A stretch of 64,000 nucleotides of DNA from Chloroflexota bacterium (GTDB lineage Bacteria > Chloroflexota > Limnocylindria > Limnocylindrales > CSP1-4). Position 1 is the first letter of the stretch. Each line of letters begins with the position of its first letter. The stretch is from the NCBI GenBank assembly GCA_021783095.1, contig JAJXUG010000010.1, forward strand, positions 1-64,000, read 5' to 3'. The notes beneath the pieces are model-generated. The model searched no databases. It worked only from the letters and a program-made list of their open reading frames with translations, and was not told the origin of the DNA. The translations under genes and the position numbers were made by a program. Shown piece after piece: positions 16,356-21,332 of this stretch.

Positions 16356-16731
16356 ACCCCGGCTCCGTTGGCGGGCGGCGGATCCGCCGCAATAACGGCG
16401 TTGTCGCCTGCGGTGCACTCACGCACCTTGGCGCACGCCCCGCCTGGAGTCATGCACCAACACGGCTTCAGTCCGAGGCCCTTCCGCAAGGAGGGGCCCT
16501 TCGATTCCCCGGCATCCTCTCGAGCGGCGGCTTGCCGCTGGGCGGCTCAGGGCGCTGGGTTCAGGCTGATGGGCGCCGCCCTGCGGCGCGAGGGGCGTTG
16601 GCGCGACGCCACCAAATCGGCGGCCATTGTCGCTTGGGTGACTCGTCGCGTTGGCGCCTCGCCGGCGGGTTCCGGCGTTGGTGGTACCGCGCCACCGATC
16701 AGAGGCGAAGACCGCCCCCCGGCGGCGATCT
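16356..16731. other. non-coding spacer with an inverted copy of the 52-bp repeat core
   Basis: No credible gene. Positions about 16599-16618 hold the reverse complement of the repeat core found at 16782-16801, with one mismatch. Several GGCGCC palindromes and a GC-rich dyad near 16480-16500 are present. Open frames on both strands are Arg/Ala/Gly-rich and unlike proteins. Confidence 0.5.
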
Positions 16732-16852
16732 GGTGGCGCCGCGCCAACGGGCCGCTGCCGGCCTGCGCGGGGGCCCGGCGTTTGGTGGCGCCGCGCCAAC
16801 GGGCCGCTGCCGGCTCGCGCGGGGGCCCGGCGTTTGGTGGCGCCGCGCCAAC
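16732..16852. repeat. 52-bp tandem repeat, about 2.3 copies
   Basis: Units start at 16732, 16784 and 16836, each opening with GGTGGCGCCGCGCCAAC. The first two are nearly identical over 52 bp, the third is cut after 17 bp. The core can fold on itself (TTGG...CCAA around GCG/CGC), as REP-type sequences do. There is no constant-spacer pattern, so this is not a CRISPR array. Confidence 0.8.
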
Positions 16853-16931
16853 ACCGGCGAGGCCCGGGTGCGGAGGGCGGCTCGCCGGAGCCGTGGCAGG
16901 CGCCGCTGGCCGCCTGGTCTGCTGAGCAGCC

Positions 16932-18221: not shown

Positions 18222-18586
18222 GGGCCGAGTATAGGCACGGCCCCTTACCCCGGATCCACCGAACCGAAACGCCTGACGGCTCGATGACGACTGCAGGGAG
18301 ACGGTCGACCGCGATGCAGGTCGAGACCGGCTTTTAGCCGGCGCGGGTGACGTCCATCCTGCGGCGCACCGCCTGGACCTCGGAGGCGTGGAAGCCGCCG
18401 TCGGCCCCGAGGGTGTGCTCGCCGGTCATCAGGACGTCGCCCGCGCCCGCGGCGACCGCGAGCAGCGCAGTCCGCCATGGCGTGCAACGGCCGCGGGCCG
18501 GCCGCTGGCGGGCGGTAGCATGGCCGGGCCGGACCCGCCCTGACCCCTCGCGCGGCGGGAGGCCACCAGCCCGAGGCGCAACCATC
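18222..18586. promoter_or_regulatory. divergent promoter region with TATACT box for the aminotransferase
   Basis: On the minus strand TATACT (18233-18228) is followed by 6 nt and the GTG start, predicting a leaderless message. The remaining space toward the plus-strand acyl-CoA dehydrogenase holds the protein-like remnant listed at 18334 and no clear plus-strand promoter. Confidence 0.5.
18334..18480 (-). pseudogene. possible gene remnant
   Basis: A minus-strand frame ends with a protein-like stretch (AAGAGDVLMTGEHTLGADGG and HASEVQAVRRRMDVTRAG) but loses this character upstream, where it becomes Arg/Pro-rich and has no convincing start. It looks like the preserved C-terminus of a lost gene. 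I do not recognise the family. Confidence 0.3.
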
Positions 18587-19789
18587 GTGATCGACTTCAC
18601 CCTGTCCGACGAGAACAAGCTCGTCCGCGACGCCGCCCGCTCGTTCGCCGAGGCCGAGATCCTGCCCTACATCCGGGAGTGGGACGCCAGCGGCGAGACC
18701 CATCGCGAGGTCTTCGCCAAGATGGGCGAGATGGGCTTCCTGGGCGCGCCGATCCCCGAGCAGTACGGCGGGTCGGGGATGGACTACATCAGCTTCGCGA
18801 TCCTCTGCGAGGAGCTGGAGCGCGCCGACACCGCCTTCCGCGTCGTCCAGAGCGTCCACGTGGCGCTCAACAGCCTGACGCTCCTCCAGTGGGCCACCGA
18901 GGAGCAGAAGCAGCGCTGGCTGGTCCCGCAGGCGAAGGGCGAGAAGCTCGCGACCTTCGGCCTGACCGAGCCCGGCGCTGGCACCGACGCCGGCAATCTC
19001 GCGACGACCGCCCGGCGCGACGGCGACAGCTACGTCCTCAACGGCCACAAGCTCTGGATCAGCCTCGCCGACCTCGCGGACCACTTCCTCGTGTTCGCCT
19101 CCGTCGACCGCGCCAAGAAGCACAAGGGCGTCACGGCGTTCGTGGTGGAGCGCGGGATGCCCGGGCTCACCACCGGCACGCTCCACGGCAAGCTCGGGAT
19201 CCGGGCGGGCAACACCGGGCTCATCGACTTCGAGAACGTGCGCGTCCCGGTCGAGAACCGGATCGGCGATGAGGGCGAGGGCTTCCTCATCGCGATGAGC
19301 GCCATCGACCAGGGCCGCTACACCGTCGCTGCCGGCGCCGTTGGCCTCGCACAGGCCTGCCTCGACGCGTCGGTCAAGTACGCGCACGAGCGCCACACGT
19401 TCGGCAAGGAGATCGGCGAGCACCAGCTGGTCAAGCAGATGCTCGCGAACATGGCGAAGGGCACCGAGATCGGCCGGCTGCTGGTGTGGCAGGCGGGGGC
19501 GCTCAAGAACCGCGGTCTGCGCAACACGCGCGAGACGTCGCTTGCCAAGTGGCACGCGACCGAGCACTCGGTCCAGGCCGCGCTCGACGCCATCCAGATC
19601 CACGGCGCCAGCGGCTACTCCAACGAGTTCCCCGTGGAGCGGTACCTCCGCAACTCGAAGGCCGCGGTCATCTACGAGGGCACGAGCCAGCTCCACACGC
19701 TGATCCAGGCCGACTACGCGATGGGCTATCGCCACGACCGGCCGCTGCGCTGCGAGCCGTGGCCGGCCCAGGGGTTCGAGCGCGGCTAG
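18587..19789 (+). CDS. acyl-CoA dehydrogenase
   Basis: A 400-residue FAD enzyme of beta-oxidation or amino-acid breakdown. Features in order: N-terminal helical domain, FGLTEPGAGTDAGN (FAD/substrate loop), KLWISLADLADHFLVFASVD, the adenine-binding region QRHTFGKEI-like (ERHTFGKEIGEHQLV), and AVIYEGTSQLHTL, whose Glu is the catalytic base position in glutaryl- and short-chain dehydrogenases. The GTG at 18587 begins MIDFTLSDENKLVRDAARSF. No electron-transfer flavoprotein genes are nearby. Substrate chain length cannot be set from sequence alone. Confidence 0.92.
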   Translation: MIDFTLSDENKLVRDAARSFAEAEILPYIREWDASGETHREVFAKMGEMGFLGAPIPEQYGGSGMDYISFAILCEELERADTAFRVVQSVHVALNSLTLLQWATEEQKQRWLVPQAKGEKLATFGLTEPGAGTDAGNLATTARRDGDSYVLNGHKLWISLADLADHFLVFASVDRAKKHKGVTAFVVERGMPGLTTGTLHGKLGIRAGNTGLIDFENVRVPVENRIGDEGEGFLIAMSAIDQGRYTVAAGAVGLAQACLDASVKYAHERHTFGKEIGEHQLVKQMLANMAKGTEIGRLLVWQAGALKNRGLRNTRETSLAKWHATEHSVQAALDAIQIHGASGYSNEFPVERYLRNSKAAVIYEGTSQLHTLIQADYAMGYRHDRPLRCEPWPAQGFERG

Positions 19790-19822: not shown

Positions 19823-20638
19823 CTAGGCCGCCGTGAGCGCGACCGGACGGCACACCTTGCACGGCCGGTAGCCCCGGGCGTCGGCCTCGCGAAGCGAGTG
19901 GAATGTCACGCGGTGCCCTGGCGCGACCCGCCGGGCGTGGCGGCACGTGGGCCAGCAGACGATGCGCGTGGTGTCCGAGCCCACGAGGCGCTCGCCCCGA
20001 TGCGCAGCGTCCTCGAGCGCCTCGGGGTCCAGGCCCTCCGCCGCGAGGATCGCCCGCTTGTTGTGGGGCCCGCCGAGCGAGTAGTTGCCGATCGACCCGT
20101 CTGACCGGACGACGCGGTGGCAGGGGACCACCAGGGGCACAGGGTTGTGGCCGAGCGCGGTGCCCACGGCCCGGACCGCCCTCGGCTTGCCGATCTCGGC
20201 GGCGATCCAGCCGTAGGGGCGCACCTCGCCGAACGGGATCTCGAGCGCCTTGCGCCAGACCGCAACCTCGAAGCGCGTGCGGCCGCGCAGGTCGAGCCCG
20301 ATGGGCACGTGGCGGTCCCCGGCCAGGCGACGCGAGACAGCCGAGGCCAGCGCGGGCGGCAGCGCATCGGCGAGCAGCGTCCGGCGGCCGGTCTGCGCCT
20401 CGTGCGCGGCGGCCATCGTCGGGCCGTCATCGCCCAGGTCGACGGTCGCGACGCCGCGCCCGTTCCAGGCCACCCACAGCGTCCCGATCGCCGCGGCGAC
20501 CGGCGCGATCCGGTCGGCCAGGCCGACCTCGACCAGCACCTCGTCGGCCAGGCCCACGGGCGCCGGCTCGGCGAGGCCCGAGAGCAGGCCCGGGGATCCG
20601 TCGGCAGCCGCCATCTCGAGACTCCGATTCACCATCAT
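19823..20638 (-). CDS. Ada-like DNA repair protein with reversed domain order (MGMT core, then Ada zinc domain)
   Basis: 271 residues. The central O6-alkylguanine-DNA methyltransferase domain has the RIPFGEVRPYG-type helix (IPFGEVRPYGWIA) and the active site VVPCHRVV with acceptor Cys173, then GGPHNKRAILAAEG. The C-terminus is an Ada metal-binding domain with four cysteines (228, 232, 260, 263) in the spacing seen at the N-terminus of E. coli Ada, where the first Cys accepts methyl groups from phosphotriesters. The AraC helix-turn-helix of Ada is absent. It overlaps the upstream ECF sigma gene by ATGA, so sigma and repair protein are co-translated. Dual repair is likely; the regulator may be the sigma factor. 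Confidence 0.88.
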   Translation of the reverse strand: MMVNRSLEMAAADGSPGLLSGLAEPAPVGLADEVLVEVGLADRIAPVAAAIGTLWVAWNGRGVATVDLGDDGPTMAAAHEAQTGRRTLLADALPPALASAVSRRLAGDRHVPIGLDLRGRTRFEVAVWRKALEIPFGEVRPYGWIAAEIGKPRAVRAVGTALGHNPVPLVVPCHRVVRSDGSIGNYSLGGPHNKRAILAAEGLDPEALEDAAHRGERLVGSDTTRIVCWPTCRHARRVAPGHRVTFHSLREADARGYRPCKVCRPVALTAA

Positions 20639-21213
20639 GCGATCGCCTCCTCGAGCCCCGCCTGCGCCGCGGCGACCCGCAGCATCGCGAGCCCTCGGTG
20701 GACCTGGGCCTTGAGCGTGCCCTCGGGGCGGCCGAGGACCTCGGCCAGCTCCGCGTACGAGAGGTCGCCCACGTGCCGGAGCACCACCGGCACCCGATAG
20801 CGCTCGGGCAGGGCGGCGAGGAGCCTCGCCAGCTGCTCGCGCTCAACCGACCGCTCGGCCACGGCGACCGGTCCGTGCTCCGCCGGGGCTGCCGGCTCAC
20901 GCCCGATCTCGGCCAGGCCGTCGAGCGGCGTGGTCGCGGGCCGGCCCCGACGGAGGCGGTTGCGGCACTGGTTGACGACGATCGTCGCCAGCCACGGACG
21001 CAGCCGGATATCCCGGATCCGCGCCTGTTCATACCCCGCCAGCGCGCGGTAGGCGCGGACGAGCGCATCCTGCGCCACCTCCTCGGCGTCGTGGGGATCG
21101 CCCAGGACGCGGAGCGCGATCGCGTAGCACCGGTCAGCGTGGGCGAGCACCAGCGGCTCGAAGGCGGCGTCGAGATCGCGGGCGAGGGCGTCGGCGAGGG
21201 TCGGGTCGTCCAT
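20635..21213 (-). CDS. ECF RNA polymerase sigma factor
   Basis: 192 residues with region 2 (YAIALRVLGDPHDAEEVAQDAL and YRALAGYEQ) and region 4 (LPERYRVPVVLRHVGDLSY and LGRPEGTLKAQVHRGLAML). No anti-sigma gene is adjacent; its only partner is the Ada-like repair gene with which it overlaps by 4 bp. The natural inference is a sigma factor serving an alkylation response, activated in a way not visible here. The ATG at 21213 is preferred over upstream starts whose residues are Arg/Pro-rich. Confidence 0.9.
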   Translation of the reverse strand: MDDPTLADALARDLDAAFEPLVLAHADRCYAIALRVLGDPHDAEEVAQDALVRAYRALAGYEQARIRDIRLRPWLATIVVNQCRNRLRRGRPATTPLDGLAEIGREPAAPAEHGPVAVAERSVEREQLARLLAALPERYRVPVVLRHVGDLSYAELAEVLGRPEGTLKAQVHRGLAMLRVAAAQAGLEEAIA

Positions 21214-21332
21214 CACACCTGTTGAACACGCGCGGCACGGGCGCGGTTGCATGCCTGCTCGCGCCGCAACCGCCACCGGGCGGCGACCGCGCGGCATGCC
21301 GGGGAGCCATCGTCGCATGTCACAATCCGGGC

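Follow-up and report, generated by a model that had tools for sequence, protein, structure and literature searches.

In the textbook adaptive response to alkylation, the only output is a DNA-binding activator in its methylated form. Escherichia coli Ada consists of a zinc domain, an AraC helix-turn-helix (HTH) and a methyltransferase (MGMT), in that order, and its A-box is read by Arg45 and Arg71 (PMC4437013). Bacillus has an AdaA/AdaB system. Mycobacteria have AdaA-AlkA together with Ogt (PMC5751216). In both of these systems the Ada domains are split and recombined, as they are in the protein described here, but the HTH is kept, the regulators are DNA-binding activators and no sigma factor takes part. 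A second point of comparison is SigR-RsrA, a pair of an ECF sigma factor and a class I (zinc) anti-sigma factor. The open-access literature searched contains no description of an ECF sigma factor paired with Ada or MGMT, although a prior mention in 10.1093/nar/gkaa1229 is not excluded.

The stretch of DNA analyzed (the window) is 64,000 nucleotides long and comes from a Chloroflexota bacterium (GenBank assembly GCA_021783095.1, contig JAJXUG010000010.1). It contains a leftwards-transcribed pair of genes encoding a sigma factor and a fusion of MGMT with an Ada zinc domain (Table 1). The sigma gene product matches sigma regions 2 (E 1.5e-15) and 4 (E 5.9e-16) and no other Pfam domain, and it is thus an ECF sigma factor (sigma-70 group 4) by the presence of these two regions only. 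In the fusion protein, the order is that of PF01035 (residues 123–202; E 2.4e-30) followed by PF02805, Ada_Zn_binding (residues 210–265; E 2.7e-10, above the cut-off), and no HTH_18/AraC domain is found by Pfam. The PCHR motif within an MGMT fold identifies it as an O6-alkylguanine-DNA alkyltransferase (MGMT/Ogt). An AlphaFold model of the fusion (pLDDT 89) is matched by Foldseek to C-Ada (1sfe; E 1.7e-11) and only weakly to methylated N-Ada (1u8b; E 1.5e-2). The overlap of the two genes likely couples their translation. A sequence-only reading of this locus had placed the methyltransferase (Cys173) first and the four-Cys zinc domain last, with an ECF sigma gene overlapping the fusion by ATGA, and all of this is confirmed at the same coordinates. 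Its further statement that the DNA-binding part is missing holds only partly, as the AraC-type reader alone is absent and the methyltransferase retains its own DNA-binding domain.

Table 1. Positions of the sigma–fusion operon features within the window.
Feature	Position	Strand	Remarks
ECF sigma factor gene, regions 2 and 4	20635..21213	-	192 aa
MGMT-AdaZn fusion gene	19823..20638	-	271 aa; Pfam and structural model
ATGA shared by the sigma stop codon and the fusion start codon	20635..20638	-	four shared bases
Promoter-like site, ECF-type, GCAAC-N16-GTGTT	21225..21250	-	11 nt 5′ of sigma ATG
N-terminal extension of fusion, ~residues 1-45, motif AP..L...V....GLAD	20504..20638	-	
PF01035 methyltransferase active-site/DNA-binding domain, residues 123-202	20033..20272	-	Pfam
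Codon of Cys173 (PCHR, methyl-accepting)	20120..20122	-	
C-terminal Ada zinc domain, Cys228/232/260/263	19844..20011	-	Pfam

Three other features of the window and its genome were noted. An acyl-CoA dehydrogenase gene (18518–19789, +) was considered as AidB, a member of the Ada regulon, and rejected; with PRK11561, which we take to be the AidB model and whose cut-off is 545, its product reaches 66.8 bits, and the gene is convergent to the operon and lies outside it. A GC-rich repeat stretch (16419–16900) in which peptide phrases recur in several frames lies beside an aminotransferase gene. A second MGMT-Zn copy in the same genome (contig C60, 4277–4753; L002/L233) is truncated by the contig end, lacks upstream DNA and has 82% identity to the window fusion over residues 112–270; it could be a paralogue or come from a co-binned strain (genome contamination 3.72%).

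The sigma–fusion pair is widely conserved. A first search with the fusion protein gave 39 related loci in one collection, and matches are present in 54 of 61 genomes (its own and relatives), many of the weaker ones being ordinary MGMTs. With a fusion taken to be a single open frame that an MGMT-Zn profile covers, the collection comprises 115 distinct fusions; PCHR is present in every one and the four-Cys pattern CxxxC..CxxC in all but one (114/115). A sigma gene lies directly upstream on the same strand in 96 of the 107 distinct fusions with at least 650 nt of upstream sequence; the junction has a 4-nt overlap in 68 of 99 sigma-linked fusions and an 8-nt overlap in 14. Several of the 11 fusions with no sigma gene upstream are additional copies, a linked one being present in the same genome, and at least one of the 11 (L281) has a sigma ORF downstream instead. 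Synteny extends to the neighboring genes in some members of the family, but the pair persists beside other neighbors across two phyla, Chloroflexota and Actinomycetota. The cross-phylum evidence comes from named records in a plasmid collection, with pairs in Nonomuraea gerenzanensis, Rubrobacter radiotolerans, and Streptomyces sp. NBC_00503 and NBC_01022. In Streptomyces sp. NBC_00212 (L315:1829–3175) sigma region 4, MGMT and the zinc domain are joined in one 448-aa chain; because sigma region 2 escapes Pfam in this protein and no matching promoter-like site was found for its gene, it is possibly decaying or differently used. Absence of conservation of the pair had been named in advance as part of what would refute a rewired adaptive response; the same fusion and gene pair were sought in related genomes and found, so that this condition is not met.

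A promoter-like site, GCAAC-N16-GKGTT (K = T or G), is conserved 5′ of the sigma gene. When the loci of the genus are aligned it is exact in 10 of 11 (including L010, with unrelated DNA further upstream) and a one-base variant in the other (L005). With its spacing fixed at 16 nt, the exact site precedes the sigma start in 38 of the 49 loci of the first set, as compared with 0.0005 per mononucleotide shuffle. These 49 include one near-duplicate (L044/L004) and four loci (L040, L069–L071) whose examined frame has no zinc domain; these four pairs lack the site, and most of the zinc-fusion misses are visible near-variants. In the wider set the site is present in 70 of 96, and it occurs with exact spacing also in Nonomuraea and in Streptomyces NBC_00503 and NBC_01022, while Rubrobacter has GAAAC in place of GCAAC with the spacing unchanged. 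The sigma transcript may be leaderless and the sigma factor may recognize GCAAC-N16-GKGTT. Both are inferred from sequence alone; recognition of an AAC-containing promoter of its own, as expected of an ECF sigma factor, rests here on the conserved motif without transcription data.

In the genus to which the window belongs, and in sister genera, the same site stands before other genes as well, namely a second MGMT gene and an EamA-type exporter gene. A large regulon was not found in the window's own genome, where GCAACS-N14..16-GKGTT, with no start codon demanded, has 13 matches versus 6 for the reversed pattern. The leaderless layout precedes a recognizable intact gene only at the operon (L115) and at the EamA gene (L118); another match (L111), at a GTG inside an apparent oxidase frame, was taken as chance. 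The stand-alone MGMT gene of this genome (contig C34) has no motif, and the visible regulon is therefore the operon plus EamA. Across 12 genomes of the genus, the leaderless pattern (the site with a start codon within 4–14 nt) yields 37 rows versus 4 in the reversed control. Of these rows, 10 are sigma genes, 3 a stand-alone MGMT, 4 an EamA transporter (one truncated at a contig end) and 20 have no evident connection with alkylation, several of the 20 falling within the coding frames of other genes. Orthologues of the stand-alone MGMT identified by protein search have the exact site in six of seven instances and a variant in the seventh, three of the seven being in genomes already in the pattern search; an eighth, more distant orthologue (49% identity) also has the exact site.

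The EamA-type exporter of the window's genome is encoded on contig C105 (L234:1811–2755; homologues L210–L226), and homologues are present in 17 of 107 family genomes. Three of the five in the genus have the site; of the others, two lie directly behind sigma–MGMT-Zn, two after MGMT and two behind an AdaZn protein, four are divergent from classical Ada, and four show no link. In 13 of the 17 genomes the gene thus either adjoins alkylation genes or has the site in common with them. Homologous exporters adjoin classical Ada in a sister genus, and the same exporter is therefore associated with the classical system as well as with the sigma-type one. It is tentatively regarded as an alkylation-defense exporter of unknown substrate.

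The fusion and the classical regulators exclude one another within the family. Any Ada zinc domain is encoded in 88 of 107 genomes and the fusion in 60, including 59 of those 88; 29 genomes encode an N-terminal AdaZn, 20 of the Ada type (genus g2) and 9 of the AdaZn-HTH-AlkA type. The fusion and a classical Ada/AdaA do not occur together in any of the 107 genomes. The counts of 60 and 29 were made by hand and are uncorrected for descent; Pfam confirmed the classical architecture of three proteins, and in additional Ada loci it was checked from the order of the domains. Within the window's own genus, one genome (G005) lacks the fusion and has AdaZn-HTH-AlkA adjoining MGMT instead, such that a system of the AdaA-AlkA type stands in its place.

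The residues with which Ada reads DNA are lost from the fusions. The equivalents of Arg45 and Arg71 in the window protein are Ala235 and Val262, and arginine is present at these positions in 0 and 6 of 108 fusions, respectively, versus 9 of 9 at both positions in Ada proteins of the same family (L037, a fragment of a fusion with a frameshift that had been sorted with the classical proteins, was left out of this comparison). Retention of the cysteines with loss of DNA reading is as expected if the signal passes through protein contact. The fusion and E. coli Ada both have the two methyl-accepting domains, and a proposed role as autoregulated alkylation sensor is common to both, but the fusion has the reverse domain order, no AraC HTH and no A-box arginines, and its output is a separate sigma factor; a true Ada of the same family (L235) does have HTH_18. 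Of the features that define the Ada regulatory protein, the window fusion therefore has the zinc domain, for which methyl transfer is inferred, and lacks the HTH, the order and the two arginines.

The absence of a separate anti-sigma gene, pointed out in the sequence-only reading, is confirmed. However, relatives have a zinc anti-sigma domain fused to MGMT, and the repair protein itself is therefore the likely anti-sigma factor. The clearest example is a sigma-linked MGMT (L289) with zf-HC2 at its N-terminus (E 1.8e-8, above the cut-off; 5.9e-6 and below the cut-off with the RsrA model). The zf-HC2 match is weaker in L288 and L038, the latter a single chain in which a zf-HC2-like part is combined with MGMT and AdaZn, and L307 was recognized by motif. 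This evidence comes from relatives and not from the window protein, whose N-terminus matches no anti-sigma family or other Pfam domain. It thus meets the expectation that the gene of a class I anti-sigma factor follow that of its sigma factor and be coupled to it, but fails that of a recognizable domain, and its anti-sigma role, including binding and inhibition of sigma, is inferred. Foldseek gave no anti-sigma match with the window fusion model or with a poor model of HR23 (pLDDT 73, pTM 0.35), and comparison of the L289 N-terminus with PDB sequences gave nothing relevant.

An N-terminal extension is present in 91 of 96 sigma-linked fusions and in none of 11 unlinked ones (hypergeometric 3.7e-14, phylogeny ignored). 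The contrast is weaker than it appears, because sigma-linked sequences had served to build the profile and unlinked fusions are more distant from it. This extension in the window fusion could be the sigma-binding part, for which there are no binding data. A tree of sigma factors, sampling 40 fusion-linked sigmas (random), 4 from zf-HC2 pairs and 24 from non-zinc pairs, has two supported clades (99/96). The first contains 21 of the 24 non-zinc pairs and three zf-HC2 pairs, and the second contains the fusions, L038 and the other three non-zinc pairs; three of the four zf-HC2-bearing pairs are thus outside the fusion clade. Many sigma-linked MGMTs have no zinc domain, which is accordingly not essential to the pairing. 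Examples of such proteins with a long N-terminal region (about 80–100 aa) are L102, L103 and L106, from family genera g22, g7 and g23. As in SigR-RsrA-type pairs, the putative anti-sigma factor is encoded directly downstream and the ECF promoter appears autoregulated, and the ZAS motif HxxxCxxC that is carried on MGMT in the window's relatives recalls these pairs. The window system differs in that its sensor is a suicide methyltransferase with a short N-terminal extension and no recognizable ZAS.

The locus is likely a self-contained alkylation switch in which a suicide repair protein acts as an anti-sigma factor and methylation releases the sigma factor. In this view, the unmethylated fusion would hold the co-translated sigma factor through its N-terminal extension or its zinc domain. 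The repair protein would take a methyl group irreversibly from O6-methylguanine onto Cys173 and, by analogy with N-Ada, a zinc cysteine would accept one from methylphosphotriesters. The methylated fusion would let the sigma factor go, and this would then transcribe its own leaderless operon from GCAAC-N16-GKGTT together with a small regulon, which in the genus of the window and its relatives would consist of the second MGMT and the EamA exporter. Fresh unmethylated protein would be made until the damage is gone, whereupon the sigma factor would be held again. The sigma factor would thereby likely replace the DNA-binding output of Ada. Induction, methyl transfer, binding of the two proteins and polarity (release rather than activation) are all inferred. 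The earlier proposal of a rewired adaptive response, with the repair protein as sensor and the sigma factor as output, is supported in silico by the conserved pair, the promoter-like site and its sharing by MGMT and EamA genes, the lack of co-occurrence with classical Ada/AdaA, and the lost DNA-reading arginines, with sensing and binding again inferred. A bolder reading, that covalent, irreversible methylation of a suicide repair enzyme and anti-sigma factor frees the ECF sigma factor and so counts lesions singly, is as likely to be wrong as right. On that reading the system would be a sigma-based counterpart of the Ada response in use across Chloroflexota and Actinomycetota, with an EamA exporter in its regulon.

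The first alternative is the opposite polarity, in which methylation turns the repair protein into a co-activator that binds sigma or holoenzyme only in this state. It is favored by the behavior of E. coli Ada, which when methylated is an activator working with polymerase (PMC4437013), by the zinc-domain cysteines kept in 114 of 115 fusions, and by a window N-terminus not recognizable as an anti-sigma domain. However, a zf-HC2 anti-sigma domain occupies the equivalent place in relatives and it is common for sigma-linked MGMTs to have no zinc domain at all, and this polarity is considered unlikely.

Simple co-expression, in which the sigma factor answers another signal or autoregulates and MGMT-Zn is its first target with no regulatory role, is also improbable. 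Operons of ECF sigma factors often contain target genes, direct evidence for interaction of sigma and fusion is lacking, and the Actinomycetota non-zinc pairs belong to longer repair operons that also encode AlkB-like proteins and methyladenine glycosylases. Against this, the N-terminal extension tracks sigma linkage, zf-HC2–MGMT fusions and a single-chain sigma–MGMT-Zn protein exist, genomes with the pair lack Ada-type regulators, and the zinc domain keeps its cysteines despite the lost DNA reading.

That the zinc domain is a relic of a broken Ada aiding only repair or stability, the pair reflecting a vertically inherited chromosomal block, agrees with the partial synteny of neighbors and the lost DNA-reading arginines but is very unlikely given the persistence of the pair beside other neighbors in two phyla, the four-Cys pattern in 114 of 115 fusions, and the promoter-like site with exact spacing in Streptomyces and Nonomuraea.

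If release by methylation is correct, members of two large phyla use an ECF sigma factor, probably inhibited by the repair protein, as the output of the adaptive response, and irreversible protein methylation by damaged DNA would be a new class of signal for ECF sigma and anti-sigma factors. It would also explain Streptomyces and Rubrobacter genes annotated merely as 'sigma factor' and 'methylated-DNA-cysteine methyltransferase', and would implicate an exporter family in alkylation defense.

Related ECF–MGMT repair operons without the MGMT-Zn fusion are present on Actinomycetota plasmids of Tsukamurella (L312; MGMT-sigma-MGMT-oxygenase-AlkB), Arthrobacter (L313; MGMT-sigma-MGMT-AlkB-like-methyladenine glycosylase) and Rhodococcus antarcticus (L317; sigma-MGMT-oxygenase-AdaZn). 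As in the window pair, the ECF sigma gene of non-zinc operons overlaps that of an MGMT bearing an N-terminal extension. Unlike it, their MGMT has no Ada zinc domain, and AlkB-like or glycosylase genes follow; the Chloroflexota non-zinc pairs are mostly in another sigma clade than the fusions. Two non-zinc operons examined had no match to the fusion-type promoter-like site. By eye, a CGTCTA-like element precedes the first MGMT gene in both L312 and L313. On two Streptomyces plasmids (L314 and L316) the fusion is followed by a second, stand-alone MGMT, and the MGMT domain of the L314 fusion scores weakly (PF01035, about 40 bits); a division of labor between a sensing fusion and a repairing stand-alone MGMT is possible.
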